Source: Paludibacteraceae bacterium
GTDB taxonomy: Bacteria > Bacteroidota > Bacteroidia > Bacteroidales > Paludibacteraceae
Length of the DNA stretch: 64,000 nucleotides
Direction: 5' to 3'
Assembly (NCBI GenBank): GCA_024401435.1
Contig: JAKSLB010000011.1
Location: 26,169-90,168, forward strand
Within the stretch, counting starts at the first letter, position 1, and every line of letters starts with the position of its first letter. The translations under genes and the position numbers were made by a program. A model generated the notes under the pieces. It was not told where the DNA came from. It did no database searches and worked only from the letters and a program-made list of their open reading frames with translations. Shown here in pieces: positions 11,042 through 38,956 of the stretch.

Positions 11042-11046
11042 AAATA

Positions 11047-12095: not shown

Positions 12096-12109
12096 ACAGG
12101 AAATATATA

Positions 12110-12920: not shown

Positions 12921-12924
12921 ATAG

Positions 12925-12959: not shown

Positions 12960-12977
12960 GTTAAATTTGTTTAATGA

Positions 12978-13928: not shown

Positions 13929-13951
13929 AGTTTAAAAATCCTTTTGATATA

Positions 13952-14671: not shown

Positions 14672-14683
14672 ACCTAGAAATAT

Positions 14684-14709
14684 AAAAAAGCACCAATTAT
14701 GGTGCTTTA
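14684..14709. terminator. Rho-independent terminator overlapping a stop codon
   Basis: AAAGCACCA / TGGTGCTTT hairpin with T-runs on both sides; the TAA of the methyltransferase at 14697 lies in its loop. Confidence 0.7.
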
Positions 14710-15452: not shown

Positions 15453-15457
15453 ATGCT

Positions 15458-15465
15458 TAAATATA
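15458..15465 (-). promoter_or_regulatory. Putative late promoter box TATATTTA
   Basis: Minus strand, 5 bases before the ATG of methyltransferase B. Confidence 0.5.
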
Positions 15466-15466
15466 T

Positions 15467-15904
15467 CTAGGAATTATTGTACTTTTTTATGGCATTCATG
15501 AACTTTTCATCAATTTCTTTGACTTTTGCTTGATACTGGGCATCAATGATTTTTGCAGCCTTTGTATGCTTAAAGTACCTATGAATGCTATCTTGGATGA
15601 AGTCATAATCAACTTCTTTAATATCATTCCAAGAAATCATACTTGCGGTTGTAGTTACAAATGTTGCATCATAGTCATACAAAAGTTCTATACCAGTGAC
15701 ACTTGAAAAACTAATGTCGGCATTGTCATTTATGGTTTTAACCCATACACTAAAGAAAATATGGTAATCATTTTCATAAATATTCAAGCCGATAACATCA
15801 CCAGAATAGTCATCCTTATATCCAGTTTCTTTAACCTTGTAGTCAAGATTGATGGCTAGTTCCTTAATCTTTTCAATAACCTCTATAGCTTCGGTCTTTG
15901 TCAT
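15467..15904 (-). CDS. Hypothetical protein
   Basis: 145 residues from MTKTEAIEV at 15904, whose ATG overlaps the TGA of the upstream gene (ATGA). The frame is open 13 codons further up but that lies inside the neighbour. N- and C-terminal parts are helical (IEKIKELAINL; AKVKEIDEKFMNAIKKY), the middle beta-rich. Probably coupled with the gene at 15901-16185. Unknown function. Confidence 0.65.
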   Translation of the reverse strand: MTKTEAIEVIEKIKELAINLDYKVKETGYKDDYSGDVIGLNIYENDYHIFFSVWVKTINDNADISFSSVTGIELLYDYDATFVTTTASMISWNDIKEVDYDFIQDSIHRYFKHTKAAKIIDAQYQAKVKEIDEKFMNAIKKYNNS

Positions 15905-16185
15905 AGGAAATCCTTCAATGTATTTTTTGCGGTGTTTAAGCACTTGTCAACAAGTTTTTGCAAGTCGGTGTTAAACAAAATGTTTTCGCTATGGATGATT
16001 TCATCTTTGAAAATCAATGAAAAATGTGAACCAGCAATCTTGTAGTTGAAAGTTTCATCAAGATAGTCAAAAGAACCTACGATGCTTTCTTCATCTTCTG
16101 AAACAAAGGTGATACCGCCTTCACCATATAGATGGTGAGACAACAACTTTGTGATTGCATTGAATAAAATTCTTCTTACATTCAT
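15901..16185 (-). CDS. Hypothetical protein
   Basis: 94 residues, starting MNVRRILFNAITKLLSH; beta-rich centre (GSFDYLDETFNYKIAGSHFSL) and helical end. Middle gene of a three-gene minus-strand operon (15467-16531) with overlapping or 4-base junctions. Similar size and layout to its neighbour, so they may be a pair. No known family. Confidence 0.65.
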   Translation of the reverse strand: MNVRRILFNAITKLLSHHLYGEGGITFVSEDEESIVGSFDYLDETFNYKIAGSHFSLIFKDEIIHSENILFNTDLQKLVDKCLNTAKNTLKDFL

Positions 16186-16189
16186 TTGT

Positions 16190-16531
16190 TTAATCCTTTT
16201 CCTGTTTTAGTTTTTCATAGGCGTATTGTATAATATTGACACCAATGCAACGCAAATCAATGAAAGCATCAATATCATTGTACATTATTTGGTTTGCTAG
16301 TTTAACTATAATGGTATCCCTAAATGCGGTAATTTCTTCACTAGTCATTTTGTCATAGTTCAAATCAATTTTCAAGTCTTCAAAGTCATATGCTTCGCTA
16401 GTCACACAACCTATATGATTGAACATAAACTGGAATTCCATTGATTTTTCGTTCTGTCCTATGTAAACGGAGAAATCAATAAGATATTCCAAGTTGTACA
16501 TAGTATCATCAATTTTAATGAGTCCTTTCAT
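16190..16531 (-). CDS. Hypothetical protein
   Basis: 113 residues, first gene of the operon 15467-16531. Starts MKGLIKIDDTMYNLEYL and has an acidic middle (YDFEDLKIDLNYDKMTSEE). The GGAGGTTTAAATG start context has a strong ribosome binding site. Divergent from the small membrane gene at 16560. Function unknown. Confidence 0.65.
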   Translation of the reverse strand: MKGLIKIDDTMYNLEYLIDFSVYIGQNEKSMEFQFMFNHIGCVTSEAYDFEDLKIDLNYDKMTSEEITAFRDTIIVKLANQIMYNDIDAFIDLRCIGVNIIQYAYEKLKQEKD

Positions 16532-16559
16532 TTAAACCTCCAAATATAGATAAAATAGT

Positions 16560-16709
16560 ATGAAAAGAATGTTATTATGGATATTGCCCATTATACCTAT
16601 TCTCATTTGGGCGAAGAATGGAATAAGAAAAGAGAATACCGCATTAAGAGTTATAAGTCACGATTTGGATAAACACATCAAGAGAGAGCAGAACCTATGG
16701 AAGAAATAA
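16560..16709 (+). CDS. Small membrane protein (49 aa)
   Basis: ATG at 16560, TAA at 16707. The N-terminus KRMLLWILPIIPILIW is one hydrophobic transmembrane segment after two positive residues; the rest is a charged cytoplasmic or periplasmic tail (KENTALRVISHDLDKHIKRE). The next gene starts 13 bases before this one ends. Short, but the clear membrane segment supports it. Confidence 0.5.
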   Translation: MKRMLLWILPIIPILIWAKNGIRKENTALRVISHDLDKHIKREQNLWKK

Positions 16710-16951
16710 AGGATAAGGTGTCTAAAACATTGGAATCTTTCTCAAATGACTATTATATACCAAGGACATTTGAACTTTGTAGATACAACACAACAACTTC
16801 ACAATTAGAAACAATTTGTATATCAAAGGACATAAAGAACTTTTGCAATTATGAAGATTGGTGCTATGTACACAAGCATAGGGATTATGTAACCCTCATA
16901 TCAAAGGATTGTACCTACATAGTTAGAACATCCAAGGTTAAGGTGTTATAA
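16697..16951 (+). CDS. Hypothetical protein
   Basis: 84 residues, starting MEEIKDKVSKTLESFSNDY; beta-rich second half (YVTLISKDCTYIVRTSKVKVL). Overlaps the membrane-protein gene by 13 bases, so translational coupling is likely. Ends one base before the convergent small gene at 16953. Unknown function. Confidence 0.6.
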   Translation: MEEIKDKVSKTLESFSNDYYIPRTFELCRYNTTTSQLETICISKDIKNFCNYEDWCYVHKHRDYVTLISKDCTYIVRTSKVKVL

Positions 16952-16952
16952 T

Positions 16953-17048
16953 CTACTTTCGTTGAAAACGGCAAATCTTGATTGCATCAATCTTTAGGTA
17001 TACGATGTCTGGATTATAGATACCGATAAGTTCCTTAATTTTAGTCAT
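16953..17048 (-). CDS. Very small ORF (31 aa)
   Basis: ATG at 17048 to TAG at 16953. Product MTKIKELIGIYNPDIVYL then basic. Its start overlaps the end of the zinc-protein gene at 17041 by 8 bases. It has the look of the last gene in the minus-strand run but is short; treat as tentative. Confidence 0.35.
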   Translation of the reverse strand: MTKIKELIGIYNPDIVYLKIDAIKICRFQRK

Positions 17049-17226
17049 TGTCTTCACCAACCTCATTTTCATTGTAGTTTTCTTCATAATCAACACAATC
17101 AGGGTCACAATATGGAGTTCCGTATTGTGGACATTCGTTCATATTGTCAATATGTTTGTTGCAATTTTTGCAAAACGCACATTTGACCATATTGACATAT
17201 AATTGGTCTTGTATAATTATATTCAT
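17041..17226 (-). CDS. Small cysteine-rich protein
   Basis: 61 residues with CAFCKNC, CPQYG and CDPDC, so probably binds one or two zinc ions; ends in an acidic tail (EENYNENEVGEDND). Its ATG overlaps the TGA of the receiver-domain gene (17223). An alternative start is MVKCAFC 12 codons in. May be an adaptor for the coupled protein; function unknown. Confidence 0.6.
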   Translation of the reverse strand: MNIIIQDQLYVNMVKCAFCKNCNKHIDNMNECPQYGTPYCDPDCVDYEENYNENEVGEDND

Positions 17227-17642
17227 AGGTCTATACGGAGATGTGAGCCATCATACATCTCAAATGGAATGTTCTTTGCAACAACAACATCCATAATCTT
17301 TTTGTTATAAGAACGCATAGAAGAGTGTGCTTTAACTTCAACCTTAACTAGGTCTTGGATGTTGTGTTCTACCAAATATCTAGCAATGTCAGCACCGTTC
17401 TTTGTTTCGTTAAGGTCATAGTCCAAGTCAATTGAAATGCCTTCCCTTTTCATAACGCAAGCATCAATCAACTTGATTGCGTCTGCATAGGTGCGAGCCA
17501 AAACAAGAACATTCTTTGTGTCAAAGATACATTTGGGGTCTGCAAAGGTCTTGATATCCTTTTCGTATGGGATGATTGGCTTAATCATCTCATCACTTTC
17601 CAAATCACCAGGAAATCGGTTATCATCTACAAAAATACGCAT
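17223..17642 (-). CDS. Cyclic-phosphate-processing receiver-like protein
   Basis: 139 residues with the pattern of the cpREC family: MRIFVDDNRFP at the start, the SIDLDYDLNETKNGADIARYL acidic core (residues ~75-95), and VKAHSSMRSYNKK near residue 105. The family is a receiver-fold predicted to act on nucleotide or RNA cyclic phosphates, often near RNA-repair genes. A second copy lies at 47975 and an RtcB ligase at 43775. Its stop abuts the start of a zinc-like small protein. Activity is inferred. Confidence 0.7.
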   Translation of the reverse strand: MRIFVDDNRFPGDLESDEMIKPIIPYEKDIKTFADPKCIFDTKNVLVLARTYADAIKLIDACVMKREGISIDLDYDLNETKNGADIARYLVEHNIQDLVKVEVKAHSSMRSYNKKIMDVVVAKNIPFEMYDGSHLRIDL

Positions 17643-17900
17643 TTAAACCTCAACTTTTAATAATGCGGAGTTTAATCTAATCCAATCGTAGTCTTTAATG
17701 CCCAGATTGAATTTCTTGTTAAACATTTTAACTACAAAATCATTGTTATTGTACTGATTCTTTGTACAAAAGACAAAATCATTATCCATTTGTGTTTTCA
17801 AAAACTTGATGTTTTTAGTAGTAGACACTACAAATACAAGTTTATCTTTTAAAACACCTTTAAATGTGTCAATGTTCTTCAAGAGCATTTCGTTTGTCAT
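17643..17900 (-). CDS. Hypothetical protein
   Basis: 85 residues from MTNEMLLKN at 17900, chosen for the AAAGGAG site at a good distance; a longer frame begins 9 codons upstream. The content VFVVSTTKNIKFLKTQ suggests an alpha/beta fold. First gene of the minus-strand operon 16953-17900, with a sigma70-type promoter at 17930-17958. Unknown function. Confidence 0.65.
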   Translation of the reverse strand: MTNEMLLKNIDTFKGVLKDKLVFVVSTTKNIKFLKTQMDNDFVFCTKNQYNNNDFVVKMFNKKFNLGIKDYDWIRLNSALLKVEV

Positions 17901-17929
17901 ACACATTCTCCTTTGAATTTCCAACATTC

Positions 17930-17958
17930 AATATAGCAAATTATGTAATACTTGTCAA
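17930..17958 (-). promoter_or_regulatory. Sigma70-type promoter
   Basis: Minus strand: TTGACA (17958-17953), 17-base spacer, TATATT (17935-17930). Serves the operon starting at 17900. Confidence 0.7.
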
Positions 17959-18002
17959 GTGTTAAATGAAATATTATATTTTTATAGCAAAGGCTAGGAT
18001 AT

Positions 18003-18401
18003 ATGAAAACATTTAAGGATTTAAAACACGACATCTGGAACATAATGATGGACTATGGTTTCAACATTTTAACCGACATCAAATACACAAACAATAATTA
18101 TGGTTTCAAGATTGGTAAAGGATTCAATAACATATTTGAGTTGAAACTCCAAGATTGGTACATTAAGGATGAAGAATATATCCAAATCAAAAATGCCGTT
18201 TCTATTGCTTTGGATAAGTATATTAGATATGACTATTGGATGTTTTTCCGTAAGGTTAAGGTGTATAAGCAAGGAGTATTCCAATGTCAAAATATCAAGA
18301 CTTTAAATGATTTAGGCGAAAACTACCATTATGACTACACAACTAATGAAATAGTGTACGAAAAGTCAATTGTGTTAAATGAAGAAACCAATGAGGAGTG
18401 A
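18003..18401 (+). CDS. Hypothetical protein
   Basis: 132 residues, starting MKTFKDLKHDIWNIMMD; rich in Tyr, Asn and Lys, with DYWMFFRKVKVYKQG in the middle. Its stop overlaps the next start (TGATAATG region at 18398). Divergent from the minus-strand operon; no own sigma70 box is obvious. No family recognised. Confidence 0.65.
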   Translation: MKTFKDLKHDIWNIMMDYGFNILTDIKYTNNNYGFKIGKGFNNIFELKLQDWYIKDEEYIQIKNAVSIALDKYIRYDYWMFFRKVKVYKQGVFQCQNIKTLNDLGENYHYDYTTNEIVYEKSIVLNEETNEE

Positions 18402-18589
18402 TAATGACACAAGAGGAAGTATATGATTTCTTTCTAGAATACAACCTATTTGCACAATATGATAGTGTTGATGTTGGATATGACATCTACGATTCATCTC
18501 ATTGCGTTATAGCAACATTGCAAGACAATCCAACTATGTATGATTGTCTTATGAAAATTAAGGACTTAAAAGATTCTAATTTTATATGA
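18398..18589 (+). CDS. Hypothetical small acidic protein
   Basis: 63 residues (61 if started at MTQEEV, 18404). Acidic, starting TQEEVYDFFLEYNLFAQY. The start overlaps the previous gene. Possibly a small regulator or inhibitor by charge, but this is only a guess. Confidence 0.55.
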   Translation: MIMTQEEVYDFFLEYNLFAQYDSVDVGYDIYDSSHCVIATLQDNPTMYDCLMKIKDLKDSNFI

Positions 18590-18598
18590 GGTATAATT

Positions 18599-18679
18599 AT
18601 GAAAAATGCTTACAAATTGTTTGTTGGTGAAGAATTATTTAAAAAGTCAAAATTGAAAAATGAAAAAGACCTTCTTTAA
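18599..18679 (+). CDS. Very small ORF (26 aa)
   Basis: ATG at 18599 after GAGGTATAATT, stop TAA at 18677 inside the following terminator hairpin. Product MKNAYKLFVGEELFKKSK. Tentative, kept because of the ribosome binding site and its position in the operon. Confidence 0.3.
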   Translation: MKNAYKLFVGEELFKKSKLKNEKDLL

Positions 18680-18690
18680 GGTCTTTTTAT
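18664..18690 (+). terminator. Rho-independent terminator
   Basis: AAAGACCTT / AAGGTCTTT hairpin with TTTTTAT. The T-run flows into a TATATTTA box (18688-18695) 5 bases before the ATG at 18701. Confidence 0.75.
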
Positions 18691-18695
18691 ATTTA
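18688..18695 (+). promoter_or_regulatory. Putative late promoter box TATATTTA
   Basis: Plus strand, 5 bases before the ATG of the methyltransferase at 18701. Confidence 0.5.
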
Positions 18696-18700
18696 TTGAT

Positions 18701-19861
18701 ATGTGGAATTATAAAAGCGAAACTAAAAAGTCTAGTGGTTATGAAGATGTAATGGATGAGTTGTCAAAGTACACATCCATTGCCTATAAGAATGCTACCA
18801 AGCAAGAACAAGAGGATATGATTGAAAAGGTTTTCAACATATATCGTACAAAGAACATCTTCCCAATATCATATTATAACACCGCTGGGGTATGCGATGA
18901 AATCATTAGATGTATGAAGGCTGACGGAAAGGAATTGGACTTCAATAGTTCAATTGGACAATCCGTATGCAAGTTCTTGTTTGAAAACCTTCACAAGGTT
19001 GAGTGTAAGGGTGTAAAGAATAATAGCATATATGACAAGTTCTATGATGACCACAAGTTGAAAAGGGCTATCAAGTTATCACTAGACATAAAGGAAGGGG
19101 TAAAGCCTTCTGAATTGTTCGGTGCGTTGGAACTAATCGGTGGTAATTCTGCAACAAACTTTAAGCCAATGTCCGCAAAATCAATCTATGAGTATTTTTT
19201 ACCAAATGGCGGTGCAATATATGACTATTCTTGCGGATTCGGTGGTAGAATGCTAGGTGCTTTGACAACAAAAAGTCCTTGTACCTATTATGGTTGCGAA
19301 CCTTGTACCGAAACATTCCAACACTTGAATGAACTTGGTCAACATATTGAAATGGTATCAAAGAGGAAAGATTCATACCACATCTTTATGCAAGGTAGCG
19401 AAATTCCATTTACCGATAATAAAGAATTTATTGATTTTGCATTCAGTTCACCACCATATTTCAACTTGGAGAAGTATTCAGATGAAGATACACAATGCTA
19501 CATACAATATCCAACATTAGAATCTTGGTATGAAGGATATGTAAAGCCTACCATTCAAAACATATATAACTATCTAAAACCTGAAAAGTATTATGCCGTT
19601 AACATTGCCGATTTCAATGTTGGAAAGACTAGGGTGAAGTTTGTAGACAAATGGTTGGAAATATCTGAAAGTATAGGTTTCAAATTTGTTAAGACAATTG
19701 ATATGAACATTACTGTAAGAAGCAACACAGGCAATCAAACTGGTTCAAAGGATAAGAAAGAAGGAATTTATGTGTTTAAGAAAACAAACAATTCCATTGT
19801 TGTGAATGAAACCAATCCTTTGAAAAGGGCTTTGCTAAAGAAACAAGGTGCTTTGATTTAA
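18701..19861 (+). CDS. DNA methyltransferase with SPPY motif
   Basis: 386 residues. The SAM-binding motif DYSCGFGG (175-182) precedes the catalytic SSPPYFNLEKY (249-259), the opposite order from the two DPPY enzymes at 14-15 kb. The N-terminal ~160 residues are a family-specific domain. I know similar proteins from large phages as DNA methylases, usually without a nuclease. C-terminus ETNPLKRALLKK is the shared NPLKxAL tail. It stands alone between two terminators with its own TATATTTA box. Base target not predictable. Confidence 0.85.
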   Translation: MWNYKSETKKSSGYEDVMDELSKYTSIAYKNATKQEQEDMIEKVFNIYRTKNIFPISYYNTAGVCDEIIRCMKADGKELDFNSSIGQSVCKFLFENLHKVECKGVKNNSIYDKFYDDHKLKRAIKLSLDIKEGVKPSELFGALELIGGNSATNFKPMSAKSIYEYFLPNGGAIYDYSCGFGGRMLGALTTKSPCTYYGCEPCTETFQHLNELGQHIEMVSKRKDSYHIFMQGSEIPFTDNKEFIDFAFSSPPYFNLEKYSDEDTQCYIQYPTLESWYEGYVKPTIQNIYNYLKPEKYYAVNIADFNVGKTRVKFVDKWLEISESIGFKFVKTIDMNITVRSNTGNQTGSKDKKEGIYVFKKTNNSIVVNETNPLKRALLKKQGALI

Positions 19862-27402: not shown

Positions 27403-27431
27403 TTGACAATCCTTATTTAATTTCTTAAATT
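27403..27431 (+). promoter_or_regulatory. Sigma70-type promoter of cas7
   Basis: TTGACA (27403-27408), 17-base spacer, TAAATT (27426-27431). About 57 bases upstream of the cas7 ATG; the sequence up to ATCCTTAT is the same as in the cas5 promoter. Confidence 0.65.
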
Positions 27432-27488
27432 ATGTAACAATAATGGACAAGTAGTCCAAAAACACAAAAAACAAAAAGAGGTATGTAA

Positions 27489-28688
27489 ATGAAGAAGATT
27501 ATTCTCACCGAAGAAGTCAAGGCTATCAAGATTGATGTTGAAACAGTTGGTGCCCGTGGCATTATCAACTTTGATGGTTCTGAACAAAAGAATCTTTACA
27601 ATGGTTCTTACAACTACAATAGTAGGAACATTTCTAACGCAAGTTGGAATTTCGCTGGTTACACCGACAACATTAAACTTGGTAAGGGAATCTTTGGTGT
27701 CGGTAAGCAGTTTATGGGCTATAAGGAGAATGATGATGGTAAAATCGTTGTAGATGATAACGGCAATCCTATCAAAGAATACAAGGATGTAATTCTCCGT
27801 AGAAACATTATTAGCAACGAATCATTCAAGCAGATGGTGTTTTCAAAAAAGTGTCCGTATAACACTACCGACATTTGGTATAAGGAACCTGATGTGGTTT
27901 CCAACTATCTTGCAAACCCCATTATGATTTCAAAGGGATATCTTGGTCTTGCAGAAGAAACCAAAGCACAGAGAAATTCTATGCTCAATTTCACAAATCT
28001 CAAGATTGACGATGTAACTTTGGCAAATGTTGCATTTGGTTCTACGAATACCATTTCAGATAATGATGGCGATAAGGCAACATCTATCCACAATAAAGAA
28101 ACATGCGATGAATGTGTATGGACTGGTTCTATCACATTAATGTGTTGTGGTATTGGTAATATTGTTCTTCTCAACAATGCGGCAGGTAAGAGTGCAAAGC
28201 CACTTAAATCTACGGAAGGTGCGTTCCTTAATGCTATGCAGAATTCATTTAATGATAATACACTAAAGATTGGGGATTACATTTCCACAAACTCTCTCAA
28301 TCCTACAATCCTTCACGGCATCCTTCTCAATGAAAAGAGTATGGCTACTATTGCAAACACTCTTATTAAAGAAATCCGTGATTTTGATACCCGCACCAAT
28401 GCAGGTGGTTCAAGTGGAAATTTCAGAATTACTGCAATGTCTTGGAAGGATAAGTATCAAGAATATCACGATATTGATTTAGAGTCCTATGATAGAGATG
28501 AGCCGTTTGGAAGCATTGCAATTGGAAACGAATTCCGTGAAGCAACAAAGGAAGAAATTGAAGCCTTCAATAACGCAAGACTTGCAAATGAGAATAAAGC
28601 AAAAGAAAGAAATGCTCAAAAGGAAGAAGATAAGAAGAAAAAGAAGGAAAAAAAGGCAAAAAAGGAATCCGCTAAAAAGGCAGATTAA
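27489..28688 (+). CDS. cas7: Cas7-like Cascade backbone protein (I-F2/I-Fv type)
   Basis: 399 residues. After a short N-terminal MKKIILTE, the segment VKAIKIDVETVGARGIINFDG aligns by eye with the start of Cas7fv of the Shewanella I-F2 system ([20 protein letters not shown]). Later parts fit the same order: LRRNIISNESFKQMVF, then an ISKGYLGLAEE turn, then KATSIHNKET...VWTGSITL. Cas7 subunits wrap the crRNA in the Cascade complex. A Lys-rich tail (last ~30 residues) is extra. A sigma70 promoter and a terminator isolate it from cas5, so backbone dosage can be set apart. No Cas8 or Cas11 gene is present, as in I-F2. Family call is from memory of that protein; needs profile search. Confidence 0.72.
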   Translation: MKKIILTEEVKAIKIDVETVGARGIINFDGSEQKNLYNGSYNYNSRNISNASWNFAGYTDNIKLGKGIFGVGKQFMGYKENDDGKIVVDDNGNPIKEYKDVILRRNIISNESFKQMVFSKKCPYNTTDIWYKEPDVVSNYLANPIMISKGYLGLAEETKAQRNSMLNFTNLKIDDVTLANVAFGSTNTISDNDGDKATSIHNKETCDECVWTGSITLMCCGIGNIVLLNNAAGKSAKPLKSTEGAFLNAMQNSFNDNTLKIGDYISTNSLNPTILHGILLNEKSMATIANTLIKEIRDFDTRTNAGGSSGNFRITAMSWKDKYQEYHDIDLESYDRDEPFGSIAIGNEFREATKEEIEAFNNARLANENKAKERNAQKEEDKKKKKEKKAKKESAKKAD

Positions 28689-28699
28689 TAAATGCTAAT

Positions 28700-28733
28700 A
28701 AAAATGGGGTATAAGTCAAATACCCCATTTTTT
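28700..28733 (+). terminator. Rho-independent terminator after cas7
   Basis: AAATGGGGTAT / ATACCCCATTT hairpin with TTTTTT, between cas7 and the cas5 promoter. Confidence 0.8.
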
Positions 28734-28744
28734 CATAAAAACGC

Positions 28745-28773
28745 TTGACAATCCTTATATAATTTTGTATATT
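28745..28773 (+). promoter_or_regulatory. Sigma70-type promoter of cas5-cas6
   Basis: TTGACA (28745-28750), exactly 17 bases, TATATT (28768-28773), with AAGGAG before the ATG at 28794. Nearly the same sequence recurs at 35175 and 51338. Confidence 0.8.
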
Positions 28774-28793
28774 ATACACAACAAGGAGATTAT

Positions 28794-29786
28794 ATGCCTA
28801 TTTTAAGAATGCGATTTGAAAATGTCCATTACTATTATGGTTCAAAGAACACCATTTCTGAACAATTTAACACTGGGAAACTTGGCATTACCGATTATGA
28901 ATTGCGTAATGTATTTGCTAATATGTTAAATGTATGTCCAATTTCATTTCTACCCCCCAAAAACCCTAATGATAGTTCAAAAAAGAAGGTGGGTGATTGT
29001 TATGTTTCTTGGTTTGCTACAAACGAACTCATTAAGAAGCACAAGGAACTTTATGAATTGGCTAAAAGTGCTTTAATTAAATATAACGACAATGCCGATG
29101 ATGATAGATTTCTTAAAATGAAAGAAACTGTTAGCACTTTACATTGTGGCGAACAAGACAAAGGTGGTGAAGGTAAAGGCAGTGAAATTATTCATTTTCA
29201 CGGACAAACTTTTACACCTAAAAACAATAGACCGTTAACTCTAGGTGCTTTGTATGATATTTTCTTCATTGTATGGGATGAATTTGTGAATATCGTAACT
29301 AAAATTTGTAATGATGATATTCACAATTTAAGACCTTGGGAAGATATTATGACCAAATTGTATGAAGAATATCATAAGCATAATGATTTGGTTGTGAACT
29401 TCATTGATAAAATCAATGGGAAAGATTATCCGTGTTGTATGTATAAGTTGGCAACTTGTGTAAAGACTGGGAATGTTGCCGATAGCACAATTAGAAATGA
29501 TTCAAAGACAATAATCAGTGACTTTTCAATGAGTCCAAGATTCCCACAAAAATCAACTATCCGTATGGATGGCGAAATCTACATTGAAGTTTCAGAAGAA
29601 ATGAAGAATGAATTCCTTAATGGTTGTGGGTATGCAACATTAGGCAATGGTTTCATTGAAATTGAAAAAACTAATAAATTTGAAAATCATTACGAAGTCT
29701 ATGGTTTTGAAGATGACTTCCTTGAAACTTTGAAGAAGCCTATTCATAAAGAAATTGACTTTGATGCCTTTACAAACCTTACATAA
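28794..29786 (+). CDS. cas5: Cas5-like Cascade subunit (I-F2/I-Fv type)
   Basis: 330 residues, like Cas5fv (~330). The N-terminal part (RMRFENVHYYYGSKN) may be the crRNA 5'-handle binding fold. The C-terminal part CCMYKLATCVKTGNVAD...DFSMSPRFPQK, then IRMDGEIYIEVSEEMKNEFL and GCGYATLGNGFIEI, follows the order of Cas5fv (IYCSALYLQLARL..., then GQLEISID, then SFYLGKKGLAYVSNI). In I-F2, Cas5fv also takes over the PAM-sensing role of the missing large subunit; this protein would have to do the same. Gene order cas7-cas5-cas6 matches I-F2. No other large protein is near that could be Cas8. Confidence 0.7.
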   Translation: MPILRMRFENVHYYYGSKNTISEQFNTGKLGITDYELRNVFANMLNVCPISFLPPKNPNDSSKKKVGDCYVSWFATNELIKKHKELYELAKSALIKYNDNADDDRFLKMKETVSTLHCGEQDKGGEGKGSEIIHFHGQTFTPKNNRPLTLGALYDIFFIVWDEFVNIVTKICNDDIHNLRPWEDIMTKLYEEYHKHNDLVVNFIDKINGKDYPCCMYKLATCVKTGNVADSTIRNDSKTIISDFSMSPRFPQKSTIRMDGEIYIEVSEEMKNEFLNGCGYATLGNGFIEIEKTNKFENHYEVYGFEDDFLETLKKPIHKEIDFDAFTNLT

Positions 29787-29824
29787 TTTTCTACATTTTA
29801 ACTAACATATAAAAGAGGTAAAAT

Positions 29825-30376
29825 ATGTATCATCACACTATACAATTCAAAGAAGCCAAGAACGAATATAGCTACCATTGCAATATGTATAAGTTGTTTG
29901 GATATGATAACTATACACAAAATGCAAAAATCCCAAGGTTTCAAATTTTAGGTAATGGTTGGGTTGATTTTTATACCAATACCGATGTATTTTCAAACAC
30001 TAGTGTAATTGAATGCAAGTATTCAGAACAGATAGATGCGTGTGTTGATAATTTTTCTTTAGTGTATGTTCCACGCCATAAGAACCAATATGGAAAGAAA
30101 GTCTTATATGTCAACCCCACAAACGATGACCTCAAGAAAATTAAAAACAAACTTGAAAAGTTCCTTTGTGAACAAGGACTTGATGTTGAAGAAATTGACA
30201 TTAAGTATGAAACCAGAAGGACTATTAAAAATTGTAAAGGCAAAAATTCTAAATTGAAAAGCATTTCTTACGCAATTTCAAAAATTGTGTTGAATAAGTC
30301 TTGTGACATTTCTTACCTACTTGAAAATGGGTATGGTGCTTTCAAATACAATGGTCTTGGGTATGTAAAATTGTAA
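29825..30376 (+). CDS. cas6: Cas6-like CRISPR RNA endonuclease
   Basis: 183 residues, the size of Cas6f/Csy4 (187). The C-terminus GYGAFKYNGLGYVKL (169-183) is the glycine-rich loop typical of Cas6. His18 in SYHCNMYKLFG is a candidate catalytic residue; His3/His4 are alternatives. It should cut the repeat hairpin just 3' of GGGTG, leaving an 8-base AAATTTAT handle on each crRNA. Basic segments (ETRRTIKNCKGK) fit RNA binding. It starts 38 bases after cas5 and its stop lies at the beginning of the array leader. Confidence 0.8.
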   Translation: MYHHTIQFKEAKNEYSYHCNMYKLFGYDNYTQNAKIPRFQILGNGWVDFYTNTDVFSNTSVIECKYSEQIDACVDNFSLVYVPRHKNQYGKKVLYVNPTNDDLKKIKNKLEKFLCEQGLDVEEIDIKYETRRTIKNCKGKNSKLKSISYAISKIVLNKSCDISYLLENGYGAFKYNGLGYVKL

Positions 30377-30446
30377 GTAGAATGTAAGTTTCTTTTTAAT
30401 ACACTATATATTGTTGTTATTGAATATTTTCTACACAATATATAGT
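30377..30446 (+). promoter_or_regulatory. CRISPR leader 1
   Basis: AT-rich leader between the cas6 stop and the first repeat. AATGTAAGTTTCTTTTTAA and CTATATATTGTTGTTATT are repeated before array 2. It holds a perfect 14-bp inverted repeat: ACACTATATATTGT (30401-30414) and ACAATATATAGTGT (30435-30448), the second arm running two bases into the first repeat. Likely the integration signal and/or array promoter. Confidence 0.65.
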
Positions 30447-30963
30447 GTATCACTCCTATGCGGGTGAAATTTATTTGCTACAATAATAGAAACATTGTAA
30501 TAGAAGAGTATCACTCCTATGCGGGTGAAATTTATGTTTAAACATTCTACTTTATATAAGATTCGTCAGTATCACTCCTATGCGGGTGAAATTTATAGGT
30601 GAACACTTGTACCAAGTACAATCATCATATGTATCACTCCTATGCGGGTGAAATTTATGGGCAATGAATGACAGCAGATGATTTATTCCTAGTATCACTC
30701 CTATGCGGGTGAAATTTATATATGGTGGTCGTGGTCTTGGCTTTGATAAATCGTATCACTCCTATGCGGGTGAAATTTATATAAATTATGGTTGAAATCC
30801 TCGCAAACATCGTGTATCACTCCTATGTGGGTGAAATTTATAATACTAGATGGCAACTCTATGTATGTACGCAAGTATCACTCCTATGCGGGTGAAATTT
30901 ATGCAACAAAGAATTGGGAAAGATGATAACAAATGGTATCACTCCTATGCGGGTGAAATAAAA
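30447..30963 (+). CRISPR. CRISPR array 1: nine 28-base repeats, eight spacers
   Basis: Repeats start at 30447, 30508, 30569, 30631, 30692, 30753, 30814, 30875 and 30936. Each begins GTATCACTCC and ends GGGTGAAATTTAT, with CTATGC or TATGC as the loop of a TCAC(T)C/GGGTGA hairpin. The seventh has C to T in the loop side; the ninth has a decayed end (AAATAAAA), which marks it as the oldest, leader-distal repeat. Spacers are 33 bases except the third (34). Repeat and spacer length fit I-F/I-E systems. cas1 starts 15 bases after the last repeat, so the array is probably transcribed into cas1. Confidence 0.98.
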
Positions 30964-30977
30964 ACAATAGGATTTTT

Positions 30978-31772
30978 ATGAAGTATTTTCAATTATCAGA
31001 ATTGTTGCATACGGATGAAAGGTCGTGTGCAATTTTCATAGAAAAATCAAAGATAACTAAATCAAACAATCAATTAATAGCAGACAATCATATACGAAAA
31101 GAAGTCATAAATTACGGATTATTTTGTAGTATTATAATGGGTCGTGGTACTAGCATAACACACGATGCTATGGAGTTATTGGCATCAACAAATACTTCTT
31201 TGGTTGTAGCCTCTAATGAATGTAAAAGTATACAAATGTTATCATTATCACCTACGGCAAATACGACTAAAATATACAAACAAATAGAAATATTACAAAA
31301 TGAAAACAAGTTGAAAGATGTGCAAAATTCTTTATTGAATGAAAGATTTAATGCTAACACTTCATATGATGAATATCAAAAATTAGGTCAAGAAGGACAT
31401 TTTATGAAATGTCTATATCAAGATAAATCAAAAGAGTATGGTGTTAAATGGATTCATAGGGATTACAATGCTACTTGTGGTATAAACGCTAGATTGAATT
31501 TATTGAACTCTTGTTTATATGGTATAACAACCGCTGTAATTCATACATTAGGAATGAGTCCTTATATTGGATTTATACATAAATCTTCTTCATTGCCTTT
31601 TGTATATGATTTATCAGATTGTGTTAAAAAAGAAACAAGTATTGATGTTGCATTTGAATGTGAATCAAAACAAACTACTAATGAAATGATGATTAATATG
31701 TTCATTGATAGATGTGATGGTTTGAAAATAACAAAAAAACTTTCAACGATAGCTTTGAGTATATTAAAATGA
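30978..31772 (+). CDS. cas1: Cas1 integrase, subtype I-E-like
   Basis: 264 residues. Inserts new spacers into the array. GRGTSITHDAMELLAS (55-70), then LGQEGHFMKCLY with metal ligand Glu139, INARLNLLNSCLYGITTAVIH, IGFIHKSSS with His201 and FVYDLSDCVKK with Asp211/Asp214. The text between Glu139 and Asp214 follows E. coli Cas1 (RGIEGSRVR, INQCISAATSCLYGVTEAAI, AIGFVHTGKPLSFVYDIAD), not the I-F type. All active-site residues are present. AGGA ribosome binding site. The region cas1-cas2 looks more AT-rich in codon choice than cas7, a hint of separate origin. Confidence 0.93.
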   Translation: MKYFQLSELLHTDERSCAIFIEKSKITKSNNQLIADNHIRKEVINYGLFCSIIMGRGTSITHDAMELLASTNTSLVVASNECKSIQMLSLSPTANTTKIYKQIEILQNENKLKDVQNSLLNERFNANTSYDEYQKLGQEGHFMKCLYQDKSKEYGVKWIHRDYNATCGINARLNLLNSCLYGITTAVIHTLGMSPYIGFIHKSSSLPFVYDLSDCVKKETSIDVAFECESKQTTNEMMINMFIDRCDGLKITKKLSTIALSILK

Positions 31773-31963
31773 TAATTATAGATGCTTCAAAATTAACTAA
31801 AAAAGAAAGAGGGTTACTATCTGCATTTTGTGTAAAAATAACTCCTTCCATATATGCAACCCCTTGTAATATGAAGATTGTAAAAACTTTTGTGAATAGA
31901 TGTAGCGATTCTTGTATAATTTACAATCAAATAGGAAATAAAATATTGACAATAAACCATTAA
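31769..31963 (+). CDS. cas2: Minimal Cas2, subtype I-E-like
   Basis: 64 residues; the ATG overlaps the TGA of cas1. KKERGLLSAFCVKITPSIYA aligns with LRGRLAIWLLEVRAGVYV of E. coli Cas2, and KIVKTFVNRCSDSCIIYNQIGNK with the second helix and strand. I-E Cas2 is normally ~95 residues; the last ~30, which form the strand that holds Cas1, are missing. Small Cas2 may still dimerise and set spacer length, or it may be impaired. The gene ends cleanly at TAA with no frameshifted continuation that I can see; the cas3 promoter overlaps its end. Confidence 0.75.
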   Translation: MIIIDASKLTKKERGLLSAFCVKITPSIYATPCNMKIVKTFVNRCSDSCIIYNQIGNKILTINH

Positions 31964-31974
31964 ATTGCTATATT
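31946..31974 (+). promoter_or_regulatory. Sigma70-type promoter of cas3
   Basis: TTGACA (31946-31951), 17 bases, TATATT (31969-31974). The -35 box lies within the last codons of cas2. About 77 bases to the cas3 ATG. Confidence 0.75.
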
Positions 31975-32051
31975 TGTTACATACACATTTGTGTTGTTGA
32001 TTAATCCGTTTTCAACATGGTTGAAAATAAACTCTTTACGGAGTATTAAAT

Positions 32052-34517
32052 ATGCTTAAAGCAAAATTGAATTCAAACATCTCTTTGAAAGACCATAGCA
32101 CCGATGTAGCAAATAAAAGCTATGACCTTGCAAAATCCTTAAATTGTAACGAAGAGATTTGTAACGCAAGTAGATTGGCAGGGATGTTTCATGACATTGG
32201 AAAGTCTATTTCAAGAATTCAATCTTATTATAACGGAAGTCCAAGTAGCAACATTCCACATCCGTACCATAACGAAATCGGCTGGCTTTGGCTTCAAAAG
32301 CATAAGGATGAAGTTGTAGAATTAATCAAAAAGTTTAATGCCGTTCCAATTGATTTGAATGAGTCAAACCGAAAAATTGCGGATGAATACATTTTTCAAA
32401 TTATTTCTTCTTGCGTATATTATTCTCATGCAAAGAGATTAAATGTTGTAGAAAATAAAAAGACCATTAAAAACGACATCAATGTTGCCGAAAAACATTA
32501 TATGTTGCAGAACAACGATGGTGAAATTTCAAGTTTTATGAAGGATTTGTTTAATGTTGATTTTAACAAAATTCAATCATTGAACAATAAAGAACCAAAA
32601 CTTATCGTTGAAAGAGATGTGTATGGTTTAGACTTTGGTTATGTTACATTACCAAAAGCTGGAAGTAATACACCTATATTTAGATATGAAAAGATTGCAT
32701 ATGCAAATGCAATTCTCTTGTTGATTAGAGCATTGCTCATTGAATCAGACCATATTGTTTCTTCAAACAATAGTGAAGATATTATTTATGACATCATTGA
32801 AAAGAATGAAATGCCTAGTGAATGGCTAAAAGGTGATGATGAAACAATCAAAATAAATAAGCGTAGATTTAATGAGTGCTTTGATGCCGTAAAAACGACA
32901 CAAGAAAATAACACATATTCTGTTGTTAATATGACCGCAGGTGGTGGTAAGACATCTGTGGGATATCATCTTGGTTTGCGAAGCAATAAGAAAACCATTT
33001 TCCTTTGTTCTAGAAAGGAAGTTGCAAAGAGCATTTACGATGAATTGAAAGACCTTGAAAGACTCTTTGGAACTAATGAAGGCATTGAATTGGTGTACGA
33101 AACAAAAAGGCAAAATTCTACAAAAGAAGGTGATTGTAGATTTTGCGTAGGCACTATTGATACATTTATTGGAACTTGTGTTAATGGACGCAATATGGGG
33201 AATAACATTGAAGATTCTTCCGTAAGGATGTTCAACCTATTCAACTCCAATTTAGTTTTTGATGAATATCATGAACTTATGGATGACACAAGCCTTTTCA
33301 CTTTGTTTATTCATTTGATGTCCGCTAGAGCAAACATCATAAAGAACGATACTTTCACTCTACTTCTTTCAGCTACACCAGTTTACATTAATTCCCTTGT
33401 ATTTGGTGTGGGTAATGAGTTTGCTAGTTATTATCCTTCAAAGTATAATCATTGTAGTCCACAACATAATAAAACATACCATTCAAGTTGTGTAAAGTGT
33501 GTTTCTCCAATTTATAACAATTGTTTTGGCATTTTCAACGCAATTGAAACTTCTCAATTGTATTTTGTTGATGGTAAAAATATATGCGTAAACAATAATT
33601 TGTTGTATGTAGATAAGTTCAATGCCATAAATAGACTTATTCAACATAATGGAAAATATGGTACAAATCCCATTTCCGTAACGGCTAGTCCTTTGATTCA
33701 AGCAAGTATGAATATAAGTTGCGAAAGACTTGTAGAAAGTGTTTCAAATCCTTGGAATACCATTCAAAGAATTGGTAGATGTAATAGATATGGCAAGTTA
33801 AACGATGCTTATATTGAGCACTACATTAGTGAAGAGGGTTCACCAGAATCATTATTGCATCCATTTGTTAAAATCAATGATACAATGAAAAACATCATTC
33901 GTAATTGGCGAAATTATCTTAACACTAGCGTTGGAACTACTGGTAAGAATCTAGTTCTATCAAATTACTATGAAATGTTTATGCTTTTCTATCGTACAAA
34001 TTCTACATTGATTGAAAGTCATATTGAATATTGTTATAAAGAAGGGTTAAATAATCTTGAAATCTTTTTCCCCAAAAAGGTTAATTATTTAGAAGATGGC
34101 AAAAAGATAAATTGCACATCTTTGCGTGGTTGTGCCGAAAGTGTAATGACTATATATGGTACTGATAATAATGGAAATTTGAGATGGATTGGTTCTAATT
34201 ATAAAAATGATAAAGAAATTCCATTTACTGTAAAAGATTGGGAATTGAAGAAATTGTTAGGTTATTGGCGAGGACATGAGAATGTATTAAAGAATATTTT
34301 GCTTAAATCTAGACCCAATGAATTTAGTGGCATCAAGAAATTTATTAAGTATAAAAGTGGAATTAAAAAACTCTCTGACAATAAAATAAAATTCCTAATT
34401 GAAAATTGGGAATGGATGAGTAAGAATTATGATTTACCTATAATCGTCCCTCCAAAGGCTTGTAAATATGATTTCAAAACTGGTAGAGAAAGGGTGGTCA
34501 TAGAAAATTGTAAGTAA
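32052..34517 (+). CDS. cas3: Cas3 nuclease-helicase
   Basis: 821 residues. HD nuclease domain: KDHSTDV (His15), GMFHDIGKS (His47, Asp48), IPHPYHNEIG (His70, His73), the ligands for the metal centre that nicks and degrades the displaced strand. SF2 helicase: TAGGGKTS (Walker A, ~295-302), VFDEYHEL (DExH box, ~400), LLLSATPVY (motif III, ~440), IQRIGRCNRYG (motif VI, ~571). It is a free-standing Cas3; in I-F systems Cas3 is fused to Cas2. Likely recruited by the Cas5/Cas7 complex after target binding. Complete active sites indicate a working interference enzyme. Array 2 follows directly. Confidence 0.95.
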   Translation: MLKAKLNSNISLKDHSTDVANKSYDLAKSLNCNEEICNASRLAGMFHDIGKSISRIQSYYNGSPSSNIPHPYHNEIGWLWLQKHKDEVVELIKKFNAVPIDLNESNRKIADEYIFQIISSCVYYSHAKRLNVVENKKTIKNDINVAEKHYMLQNNDGEISSFMKDLFNVDFNKIQSLNNKEPKLIVERDVYGLDFGYVTLPKAGSNTPIFRYEKIAYANAILLLIRALLIESDHIVSSNNSEDIIYDIIEKNEMPSEWLKGDDETIKINKRRFNECFDAVKTTQENNTYSVVNMTAGGGKTSVGYHLGLRSNKKTIFLCSRKEVAKSIYDELKDLERLFGTNEGIELVYETKRQNSTKEGDCRFCVGTIDTFIGTCVNGRNMGNNIEDSSVRMFNLFNSNLVFDEYHELMDDTSLFTLFIHLMSARANIIKNDTFTLLLSATPVYINSLVFGVGNEFASYYPSKYNHCSPQHNKTYHSSCVKCVSPIYNNCFGIFNAIETSQLYFVDGKNICVNNNLLYVDKFNAINRLIQHNGKYGTNPISVTASPLIQASMNISCERLVESVSNPWNTIQRIGRCNRYGKLNDAYIEHYISEEGSPESLLHPFVKINDTMKNIIRNWRNYLNTSVGTTGKNLVLSNYYEMFMLFYRTNSTLIESHIEYCYKEGLNNLEIFFPKKVNYLEDGKKINCTSLRGCAESVMTIYGTDNNGNLRWIGSNYKNDKEIPFTVKDWELKKLLGYWRGHENVLKNILLKSRPNEFSGIKKFIKYKSGIKKLSDNKIKFLIENWEWMSKNYDLPIIVPPKACKYDFKTGRERVVIENCK

Positions 34518-34583
34518 AATGTAAGTTTCTTTTTAACATACTATATATTGTTGTTATTAATTGGTGCTTACACAACATATAGT
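34518..34583 (+). promoter_or_regulatory. CRISPR leader 2
   Basis: Follows the cas3 stop and repeats most of leader 1, including ATGTAAGTTTCTTTTTAA and CTATATATTGTTGTTATT. The homology starts before the stop codon (AATTGTAAGTA in both cas6 and cas3 ends), so a leader block was duplicated. The inverted repeat is imperfect here (ACAACATATAGTGC arm). Confidence 0.6.
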
Positions 34584-34794
34584 GCATCACTCATATGTGG
34601 GTGAAATTTATACAAAGTTTACACCACCTATAAGCACGGAGCTAGTATCACTCCTATGTGGGTGAAATTTATTTACAAGGAACTCAAAGCCCTTTTTCTT
34701 GGTAGGTATCACTCCTATGCGGGTGAAATTTATTAATAACGGCTTGCAATTTTGTATGCTTCTTCCGTATCACTCCTATGCGGGTGAAATTTAT
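34584..34794 (+). CRISPR. CRISPR array 2: four repeats, three spacers
   Basis: Repeats start at 34584, 34645, 34706 and 34767; same 28-base unit as array 1, spacers all 33 bases. The first repeat differs at three positions (GCATCACTCA..., loop T), the second at one; the last two are consensus. Variation at the leader end is the reverse of the usual pattern, so new integration here may be slow or blocked. No spacer is shared with array 1. Confidence 0.97.
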
Positions 34795-36601: not shown

Positions 36602-36808
36602 ATGAACGAAACCACAAGACAACTCTACGCAGCAGCGAACGCTGGACACGGAAATGAACTACTCAATAGTGCATTAGGTATTTATGCTTTAAGCGGTTTG
36701 GGTTGTCTACTTATCATAATATGCATTTTGATTGCACTATTTGCATTGAAATACTTGATATTTGATGTGATTTTCAATATGTTTGATGATGAAGATGAAG
36801 ATGACTAA
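36602..36808 (+). CDS. Small membrane protein
   Basis: 68 residues with one transmembrane stretch, ALSGLGCLLIIICILIALF (29-47), and an acidic tail (FDDEDEDD). A TATATAAT box lies 2 bases before the ATG, the late type. Could be a holin-like or envelope protein; no lysis partner is visible nearby, so this remains open. Confidence 0.6.
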   Translation: MNETTRQLYAAANAGHGNELLNSALGIYALSGLGCLLIIICILIALFALKYLIFDVIFNMFDDEDEDD

Positions 36809-37770
36809 TTGGAATTTAATTTTTCCAATAGCTTCAATTTCCTTCTTCTTTCAATTTCAACTTCTAGAACCATAGATGTATGGTCAACTACCCACACCCT
36901 AAAGGGTGTGAGCTTGTAATGCACCAGAGCAGCCATGCACCCTGCCTTCCAAGTCCGCAACGCTCCGTCTAGGGGCATCTTGAACGAGGAAGGATGTTTG
37001 CTCTTCTGAGCGATGTTGATTGCAGCGTTCCAGTCGGCATCAAGTACAGTACCGTTCTTGCAATAGAACCTTCGGTTCTTGCGGGTACCTTCCTTCTTGC
37101 CAGTGGTACAATCGGTCTGACTTGTCAAAAACGGAGAAACTGTTTCTACTCTTTTTCCATTGAGTAGTGCCTTGTATGACAAGATTTGCTTGAACTTGTA
37201 GAATGGAATCTGATACATTCTACGGTTGTGGGATTTCCGTTTGAACCCCTTGTTAGTCTTTGCTGTCTTCTGCTTGATGCCAGATAAGTCTTCCATCACG
37301 ACAATGGAAGCTGGTGTGCTTTGAATTACCGCATTGGCAATCTTCTGGCACATGTCGGTAGACTGGTTCTGCTCCTTGATGGACAGCTTGCGAGAGTGCC
37401 TATTAGCAGACTTGGTGCCCTTCTTCTGCAAGCATCTCTTTAGGTATCTAAGTTTTCTTCTACGCTTGTTGTACTCCTTGTCGTGAAACATCACACCTTC
37501 GGAGGAGATTGCGAACCTGCGTTCGCCCATATCCAACCCGATGCAGTTATCATCATACAACGGCACATCTGGCACATTGAATGTTATTGCAAGGAAGAAC
37601 CTTCCGTTCCGCATGAAAATCAGTGGGTCATCTGTGGTATATTGCACAAACAACGAATCCAACCTATCATAACCGACAATATCCGCTACGGCTCTTCTGC
37701 AAGACTTACCTGAGCATAATGCAATGGTCTTGCGATTGAACTTGGAATACAGTCGCTTGTCCAATCTCAT
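36805..37770 (-). pseudogene. tnpB: TnpB with N-terminal deletion
   Basis: 321 residues from MRLDKRLYSKFN, against 404 in the related copy at 57395, where the same words start near residue 104. Nineteen bases upstream, out of frame, lies ATG with the reading MAHLTYN, matching the MCEITYN start of the full copy. So ~95 codons were lost and the frame shifted. RuvC residues remain: CIGLDMGERR (Asp), VVMEDLSGIK (Glu), LDADWNAAIN (Asp). The zinc finger is reduced to TDC...FYC. The frame runs through the right end into 25 codons of flanking phage DNA. Probably inactive as nuclease, perhaps recruited for another role. Confidence 0.75.
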
Positions 37771-37929
37771 TGTAGGTTAGATGTGCCATATAACTTTCAC
37801 CCGTGTTCACCTATTAGTTTAGCATTTGTTGATTTGAATATCAAGCATTTTATGCAAGTTTGAACATAAAAAGTGTTCCCAAAGTGTTCTCGTGGGCATT
37901 CCTATGCCACCCTAAAGGGATGGCATCTT
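36881..37929 (-). mobile_element. Decayed IS605-like TnpB element 1
   Basis: Ends match element 2 at 57388-58717. Right end: GTGTG(A/G)GTAGTTGACC and the CACACCCTTTAGGGTGTG hairpin (36891-36910). Left end: AAGATGCCATCC...GGTGGCATAGG near 37905-37929. There is no TnpA, so it is non-autonomous. The tnpB inside has an internal deletion. The right end is where a guide (omega) RNA would form. The neighbour at 37928 takes its stop codon from the left end, so insertion cut that gene. Confidence 0.65.
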
Positions 37930-38299
37930 ACTGCCCACATCTTTTGTGAATCTTGTCATAATAACTTGGAATGTGATTAACATCCGTAATAGGATTTGAA
38001 TAACAATCAAATTCACCATTGATTTCTTCTGGATAAAACTGAAGACTATTTAAGTTGTTGTTGGAACAATCAAATGTACCACCAACAAATGACGGACAAC
38101 CCTTCAAAGTTGTAAGTTTGTTGAAACAACAAATGAAACTACCGCCTACATATGTGAAATCTATACCAAGTTCATATAAACCACAATTTGCAAGCATCAC
38201 ACTACCAGATACATAGACCCGCTTACCTTTGTATTTTAGGTAATTGCTTCTATCTATGTATGCCACTTGAACTATAGCTTCATTATTACCAAATGTCAT
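37928..38299 (-). CDS. LRR-like phage protein, C-terminus cut by element 1
   Basis: 123 residues with two or three repeats: FICCFNKLTTLKGCPSFVGG and FDCSNNNLNSLQFYPEEING, i.e. L..CP..VGG.F.CS.N.L.SL, a pattern of short leucine-rich repeat proteins found in large phages. Such repeats usually mediate protein binding. The final codon reads into AAGATGCC of the TnpB element, so the natural C-terminus is gone. Start overlaps the upstream gene by 14 bases. Confidence 0.65.
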   Translation of the reverse strand: MTFGNNEAIVQVAYIDRSNYLKYKGKRVYVSGSVMLANCGLYELGIDFTYVGGSFICCFNKLTTLKGCPSFVGGTFDCSNNNLNSLQFYPEEINGEFDCYSNPITDVNHIPSYYDKIHKRCGQ

Positions 38300-38928: not shown

Positions 38929-38956
38929 GTATCACTCCTATGCGGGTGAAATTTAT
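38929..38956 (+). repeat. Solitary CRISPR repeat with leader end
   Basis: One perfect 28-base repeat, same as array consensus, preceded by TTACATAACATATAGT, like the last bases of leaders 1 and 2. No second repeat follows at the expected 61 bases; a terminator hairpin begins 28 bases later. It could be an array reduced to one repeat, a new integration site, or a repeat-bearing small RNA. Confidence 0.9.

Follow-up and report, generated by a model that had tools for sequence, protein, structure and literature searches.

A phage-borne type I CRISPR-Cas locus of probably hybrid make-up on a Paludibacteraceae contig

The stretch analysed here, hereafter the window, comprises 64,000 nucleotides (nt) of a 90,168-base contig assigned to a Paludibacteraceae bacterium (contig C13 of the 204-contig genome bin G000). 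It carries a type I locus of clustered regularly interspaced short palindromic repeats and their associated genes (CRISPR-Cas) at 27489-34794, in which cas7-cas5-cas6, a first array of nine repeats, cas1-cas2-cas3 and a second array of four repeats all lie on the plus strand, with six cas genes and two arrays fitted into ~7.3 kb. The locus is probably a phage-borne, DNA-targeting type I system of hybrid make-up. Judged by its sequence, it joins I-F2-like Cas3 and Cas7 proteins, with no large subunit found, to a remotely Cas6e-like Cas6, an I-E-type Cas1 and a very short Cas2, along with the two arrays. The initial annotation, made from the letters alone, had proposed the same gene order and a phage home. 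The coordinates of the open reading frames (ORFs) and repeats agree with that order, and the locus sits among contig genes of a T4-like tailed phage, including the portal, major head protein, scaffold, tail sheath stabiliser, topoisomerase II, NrdD and RtcB. The annotated lack of Cas8 and Cas11 was borne out on this contig, which may be a phage fragment: the Cas8, Cas10 and Cas11 models of PADLOC (E ≤ 0.001) matched none of the 109 other contig ORFs. These 109 remained from 119 non-overlapping ORFs of at least 90 amino acids (aa) when the five larger cas genes and five TnpB-like or methyltransferase ORFs were set aside.

The relatives of the locus were gathered by a Cas3 alignment search, which gave 21 viral loci (including several copies) and 79 genome loci; Cas7 added one more (L123). 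The I-F2 references were 52 of the 79 genome loci, hand-picked on gene sizes and layout. L043 and L110 matched Cas1fv, Cas7f/Cas7fv, Cas5fv and Cas6f at 3.6e-54 or better, and L104 was checked for cas7 and cas5. A Cas3 tree was built without L021 and L025-L031 (same hits as L020/L032), L039 (a fragment) and L123. The window grouped with 11 phage rows in a single clade (98/99), separate from bacterial I-F2 and containing a group B of three rows (94/93) and a group A of nine rows (99/98), while the L038 Cas3 fell among the bacterial rows on a long branch. Since the rows come from one collection and one query, the phage clade may partly reflect sampling.

Group B consists of the window, L019 and L036, which present 28-nt repeats and a Cas6e-like Cas6; Cas1 is found in the window and L036 only. 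The order is cas7-cas5-cas6-array-cas3 in L019 and cas3-cas7-cas5-cas6-cas1-cas2-array in L036. The mosaic suspected in the initial annotation is real and recurs in L036, where these genes are arranged differently. The group A loci that were not cut short (L020, L022, L024, L032, L034, L037 and L123) displayed the order cas3-cas7-cas5-cas6. Their arrays have a period of ~66 and lie 3' of cas6, but 5' of cas3 in L022, with repeats of ~36 nt (L020, L022, L032, L037 and L123); in L035, no ORFs of fitting size were located next to cas3. Both group A Cas6 proteins tested were Cas6b (L020, 1.2e-45; L037, 8.1e-31), and no Cas1 was detected in the eight group A records searched, which are possibly fragments. 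The compact Cas3-Cas7-Cas5 core is thus combined with varied Cas6/repeat modules, namely Cas6b with ~36-nt repeats in group A and the Cas6e-like protein with repeats of 28 nt in group B.

No close relatives of the window Cas7, Cas3 and Cas1 were found in the viral contigs scanned, and a tblastn search of 50,697 phage records with Cas7 and Cas3 was likewise negative. The Cas3 was recovered from a single genome each among 16 of the genus, 300 of the family and 395 of the phylum, every time on the window's own contig; among 120 family genomes, the Cas7 profile also matched only the window's own. Two loci found via Cas1, L015 and L126, were set aside as ordinary I-E loci. As a separate observation, L036 holds 17 dispersed 51-base elements (CTACCGTGT...CATCGTA) from 150 to 19298, which are perhaps regulatory.

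As their profiles indicate, Cas3 and Cas7 belong with subtype I-F2 (I-Fv). The best PADLOC family of Cas3 is Cas3fv (E 2.1e-42, vs 0.035 for Cas3f), a trait shared with I-F2, even as the phage clade stands separate from the bacterial ones in the tree. It also matches the Cas3-like chain 9g44_A (E 4.2e-24), from an entry that includes a Cas7 chain. The HD and helicase motifs described as intact in the initial annotation are common to the 9g44 Cas3 (H47-D48, GxGKT 297-301, DE(Y/F)H 404-407, SATP 440-443 and QRxGR 572-576). The N-terminal fusion of Cas2 to Cas3, a trait of I-F2, is missing here; cas2 is a separate ORF, and since Cas3 residues 11-697 match positions 116-823 of the 951-position Cas3fv profile, there is no room for Cas2 within Cas3. 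The window Cas7 is by itself too divergent to pass the threshold (Cas7fv E 0.95, or 3.1% by hhalign), and its Cas7fv character is seen via its relatives. The Cas7 proteins of L036 and L020 match the Cas7fv profile at 3.1e-14 and 8.6e-19, and an 11-row phage Cas7 profile matches the Cas7fv of 5o6u at E 6.7e-30. Against the 52 I-F2 Cas7 proteins, hhalign gave 99.7% for the phage set, 98.0% for group B and 82% for group B without L036, vs 0.4% for group B against the I-E Cas7. Comparisons with Cas7e and Cas5e, the corresponding I-E traits, gave 0.0-0.7%.

The Cas6 appears to be remote kin of Cas6e, not of Cas6f. The three group B proteins aligned with Cas6e over most of their length (hhalign 79.6%, E 1.5e-5). 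Some Cas6e, Cas7e and Cas5e reference rows were falsely extended or cut, and the Cas6e comparison was re-run with 23 of 30 rows, which gave 62.5% and a score of 36.4 vs a maximum of 21.3 in 100 column shuffles (0 of 100 as high); without L036, the value was 64%. The comparison with Cas6f, the I-F2 trait, gave 0.4-0.5%. His18 aligns with a conserved Cas6e histidine, presumably the catalytic one, and the glycine-rich tails, which the initial annotation had pointed out in the window Cas6, were aligned as well. No direct match to a Cas6e family model was obtained. The annotated I-F2-like effector is supported for Cas7 (and Cas3) by profile and unsupported for Cas6, apparently a remote Cas6e relative (62-80%, vs 0.4% for Cas6f), with Cas5 unplaced by profiles. 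As Cas6 appears to be kin of Cas6e and not of Cas6f, the mosaic seam probably lies between cas5 and cas6 and not, as had been annotated, between effector and adaptation genes.

The adaptation genes had been described as I-E-like, which is supported for Cas1 and, weakly, for Cas2. The best family of Cas1 is Cas1e (E 4.8e-46, vs 1.3e-12 for Cas1f and 1.7e-11 for Cas1fv), yet its 153 bits stay below the curated TIGR03638 cut-off of 215.6. The Cas1 tree pairs the window with L036 (98/92) beside 11 I-E rows, six of which make up a separate, distant clade, and divides them from 18 I-F Cas1 (100/100); tree and profile alike show that Cas1 is not of the I-F kind. The residues E139, H201, D211 and D214, annotated as an intact active site, are invariant in a three-row alignment. 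Two more Cas1 genes occur elsewhere in the genome bin (contigs C139 and C46), with Pfam Cas1 scores far above that of the phage Cas1. The 64-aa Cas2 matched Cas2 at E 0.0031 and Cas2e at E 0.017, with profiles that span 86-102 positions; the Cas2e matches (E 0.003-0.08) lie below the curated cut-offs where given. In hhalign, Cas2e gave 31% vs 3.4% for the I-F Cas2 domain, with two of the five Cas2e reference rows apparently in a wrong frame. The L036 Cas2 ORF extends into the first repeat, with ~74 codons preceding it.

These affinities could also be explained by a reduced I-E system without Cas8e and Cas11, in which the I-F2 look of Cas7 and Cas3 is only apparent. The L036 gene order equals that of I-E (as in L015) minus two genes, and Cas6, Cas1 and Cas2 are I-E-like. 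The Cas7 values given above for group B argue in the other direction, as does the split of the Cas3 rows from two I-E Cas3 (100/100), and the core also pairs with Cas6b in group A. This explanation was already disfavoured and is very unlikely.

The third core protein, the presumed Cas5, is tied to Cas5fv by weak signals. It belongs to a family common to the phage lineage (group B vs group A 96.7% by hhalign), and its weak matches outside the phage loci included 8 Cas5fv among 30 (best E 0.24), vs 0 of 30 for I-F2 Cas7 or Cas6. With 52 Cas5fv among 1680 proteins, this enrichment gives p 1.7e-6, which overstates the case because the Cas5fv sequences are kin. Comparing the end segments of phage Cas5 and Cas5fv (hhalign), like-with-like pairs gave 2.7% and 1.9%, vs 0.7% and 0.1%. 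This weak enrichment, together with the best matches of Cas3 and Cas7 and with lengths of 183 and 330 aa near those of Cas6f (183 aa) and Cas5fv (335-341 aa) in L043 and L110, could be read as a merely divergent I-F2 (I-Fv) member whose Cas6 and Cas1 drifted past recognition. The Cas1 is far nearer to Cas1e than to Cas1f or Cas1fv, however, the Cas2 is unfused to Cas3 and the Cas6 matches Cas6e instead of Cas6f, all of which make such drift improbable.

Several results weigh against the hybrid reading. The 330-aa protein was unmatched by any Cas profile of Pfam, PADLOC or NCBIfam, it reached only 0.4-0.8% against Cas5fv (hhalign), a reverse search with the Cas5fv profile recovered no phage Cas5, and the best non-phage match was a Cas3 (E 0.0053). 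Taken singly, the Cas6 proteins gave 19% (27 columns) for the window, 2.9% for L019 and 7.2% for L036 against Cas6e (hhalign); the best Cas6e in hmmsearch (E 0.028) stood near a group A Cas6 (0.043), and a PDB profile search found no Cas6. The L036 Cas6 matches PADLOC Cas6_0_IVA3 at E 2.8e-5, the one Cas6 profile match, and would fit a type IV-like, non-cleaving silencing system. Given a Cas3 with its motifs kept and a Cas7fv-like Cas7, we regard this as extremely improbable. The branches of the Cas1 tree are long (5.5 changes per column), with the window and L036 outside the I-E rows.

The short Cas2 may be non-functional, and Cas1 was detected in one of the ten other phage records searched (that of L036), which are possibly fragments. 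It is conceivable, if rather doubtful, that the locus is partly decayed, so that interference may work while Cas1 and the 64-aa Cas2 no longer add spacers, a state compatible with the hybrid reading. The Cas2 length against its profiles, the decayed first repeat of array 2 and the nine of ten records without Cas1 speak for such decay, whereas the Cas1 active site is kept and the similarly short Cas2 of L036 precedes a 30-repeat array (≤6 mismatches) with 25 exact repeats. If part of a working system, a Cas2 of 64 aa would be unusually short.

A further point against the hybrid reading is that no spacer target was found in the phage records, genus genomes and viral contigs searched. Array 1 gave a single 27-nt match (E 0.5) and array 2 none in the 50,697 phage records, plasmids lying outside this search. 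In 16 genus genomes, the best off-contig match of array 1 had E 0.005 and none spanned a whole spacer. Viral contigs yielded no match to spacers 1 and 5 (two of the 11), for which every sixth base was left free. The best matches of the 11 spacers to the phage's own sequence covered 19-23 of 33-34 positions, with none standing out from the others. The use against rival mobile elements, which the initial annotation held likely, is unproven because spacer targets were not found.

The CRISPR repeats recur with a period of 61 (62 in one case). Allowing ≤3 mismatches, 14 copies were found across the bin, all on the window's contig and 10 of them exact, while a reversed-pattern control gave 0. The group B repeats fold into stems of 6-8 bp (6 bp in the window; z -2.5 to -3.2), and by eye we judge them to be I-E-like. 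The segment 30358-30474 is duplicated at 34495-34611 (85% over 117 nt), covering the leader and the last coding bases of both cas6 and cas3, and this leader duplication may be the origin of array 2. As array 1 decays distally and the leader with its inverted repeat recurs 5' of array 2, the leader end of the arrays is probably the 5' side. The cas1 gene starts 15 bases past the end of array 1; therefore, cas1-cas2 may share the array transcript.

The 14th copy is a lone repeat (38929-38956) absent from the initial annotation. It has a TATATT box upstream, with no good -35 element by eye, which the consensus promoter scan did not list; downstream, 28 nt are followed by a 13-bp hairpin that could terminate both its transcript and the opposite-strand portal gene. 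Among the relatives, lone repeats occur as a near-copy in L019 (at 6428) and a decayed copy in L022 (at 14978), and none was present within the 21.6 kb of L036 examined. Single repeats in viruses are known as RNA anti-CRISPRs (PMC11656645). Since the lone repeat matches the phage's own system, self-regulation is a putative role. The hairpin within its tail is no stronger than in shuffles (z -0.5; L019 z -1.7), and no perfect run of at least 9 from the tail start was found against the cas promoters. The best window matches of the tail, 25/33 at 12902 and 24/33 at 12077 on the minus strand, have no null distribution and we make no claim of them.

If the hybrid reading is right, Cas6 would cut the array transcripts at the base of the 6-bp repeat stem and stay on the 3' hairpin, while copies of Cas7 would cover the spacer. 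The third protein, as Cas5, would bind the 5' end and read the protospacer adjacent motif in place of the absent Cas8, by analogy with the I-Fv complex without Cas8. On its target, the complex would recruit Cas3 and the DNA would be degraded, and Cas1 with the short Cas2 would insert spacers at the leader end. Within the phage lineage, the Cas3-Cas7-Cas5 core would be kept and the Cas6-repeat(-Cas1-Cas2) half swapped. We regard the system as a type I variant that may be a subtype of its own. More tentatively, and with somewhat less than even confidence, we propose a phage lineage of its own subtype. Its core, made up of Cas3, Cas7 and a distinct kind of Cas5 without any Cas8, might be an exchangeable DNA-cutting cartridge. 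This was mated at least two times with different Cas6-repeat modules, an I-B-like one in group A and an I-E-like one in group B, if this proposal is right. Part of group B would have gained a self-updating memory through a working Cas1 and a minimal Cas2, and the lone repeat transcript (window and L019) would tune or block the phage's own complex.

The features of the region are collected in Table 1. The promoter-like site 5' of cas7 belongs to a four-member family of similar stretches (27396, 28738, 29762 and 35168); the promoter-like sites in the region, 74 in total vs 66.3 (standard deviation 8.2) in shuffles, are not in excess.

Table 1. Features of the CRISPR-Cas region, in window coordinates.
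Feature	Position	Strand	Remarks
Promoter-like site 5' of cas7	27403-27431	+	TTGACA, 17 nt, TAAATT
cas7, Cas7fv-like backbone subunit, lysine-rich tail	27489-28688	+	399 aa; family profile vs Cas7fv
Presumed cas5	28794-29786	+	330 aa; named by position and size; family common to phage lineage, at best remote to Cas5fv
cas6, remotely Cas6e-like, glycine-rich C-terminus	29825-30376	+	183 aa; group profile vs Cas6e
Leader of array 1	30358-30446	+	Overlaps cas6 end; inverted repeat reaches first CRISPR repeat
CRISPR array 1	30447-30963	+	9 repeats (28 nt) and 8 spacers (33-34 nt); 3' end of last repeat decayed
cas1, I-E type, active-site residues kept	30978-31772	+	264 aa; Cas1e profile
Short cas2, weakly Cas2/Cas2e	31769-31963	+	64 aa; overlaps cas1 end
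cas3, HD nuclease and helicase, Cas3fv-like, without N-terminal Cas2 domain	32052-34517	+	821 aa; Cas3fv profile, PDB 9g44_A, tree
CRISPR array 2	34584-34794	+	4 repeats, 3 spacers, copied leader; first repeat decayed
Lone exact CRISPR repeat	38929-38956	+	Then 28 nt and terminator-like hairpin next to portal gene end

An earlier PADLOC scan, among the 25 of 86 families listed, gave mostly Cas12f, methyltransferase and a 'Csx1' label; without the cas5 row and three of the ORFs (two TnpB-like, one methyltransferase), four families were left. In the scan of the 109 ORFs, the first 27 gave four families with one member each (two methyltransferase, one Cas4 and one PDC-S06) and the other 82 one homing endonuclease. 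Three transposase-family genes on the minus strand are probably TnpB-like: one at 36805-37770 (on a PHROGs basis), directly past the CRISPR locus, and two at 53919-55268 and 57395-58609, suggested by the Cas12f labels. The minus strand also carries a group I intron at 4499-4950 (Rfam RF00028, 70.5 bits) and, at 7948-11013, the 1021-aa NrdD, which perhaps holds an intein since a homing-endonuclease match lies inside it (residues 464-565). An NYxxYIGKTISV-like motif was noticed by eye in several ORFs, in L009 (contig 1-16700) and at 37928-38299 of the window.

Among the papers listed in searches of the open literature, no title or abstract start matched the gene set of the window; this search did not cover Al-Shayeb 2022 (Cell), reportedly the main survey of virus-encoded CRISPR, and a prior description is possible. 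A search of the same literature for 9G44 found no paper. The I-F2 (I-Fv) system of Shewanella putrefaciens has Cas7, Cas5, Cas6 and a Cas2/3 fusion (PMC12714560; PDB 5o6u/5o7h, 9g44). The window resembles I-F2 in its Cas7 and Cas3 families, the lack of a large subunit, the cas7-cas5-cas6 order and the sizes of the second and third proteins. Unlike I-F2, its Cas6 is not Cas6f, its Cas1 is not Cas1f, its Cas2 is separate, its Cas5 is unrecognised and its home is a phage. With I-E (L015, L126 and 28 Cas6e loci), it shares the Cas1e and the gene order in L036, together with a tentative resemblance of Cas2 (weak) and Cas6 (remote) to Cas2e and Cas6e; it differs in having neither Cas8e nor Cas11 (in the contig ORF scan), a Cas7 that is not Cas7e and an I-F2-like Cas3.

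Acquisition genes are rare in phage CRISPR systems (PMC7162821). The ICP1 Vibrio phage system is likewise a phage-borne type I system with its own cas1 and array, but it is I-F, and its Cas1 is 25% identical to the window Cas1 over 70% (PMC11656645). The huge-phage type I-C variant (PMC7162821) is also a compact type I system in a large phage; unlike the window system, it has another effector and no Cas1, Cas2 or Cas3, the last being replaced by a helicase, and a figure legend there mentions phage type I without Cas6. The 2025 classification mentions an I-F variant intermediate between I-F1 and I-F2 (PMC12669027), a rare I-F2 relative like that of the window; compared by this mention alone, identity is neither shown nor excluded. 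The same paper describes exchange between adaptation and effector modules as already known. In the phage lineage described here, the processing endonuclease and the repeat also appear to have been exchanged while the effector core stayed constant, which raises the question of what the Cas7-Cas5 core must recognise in the repeat handle, if it can work both with Cas6b and ~36-nt repeats and with a Cas6e-like protein and repeats of 28 nt.

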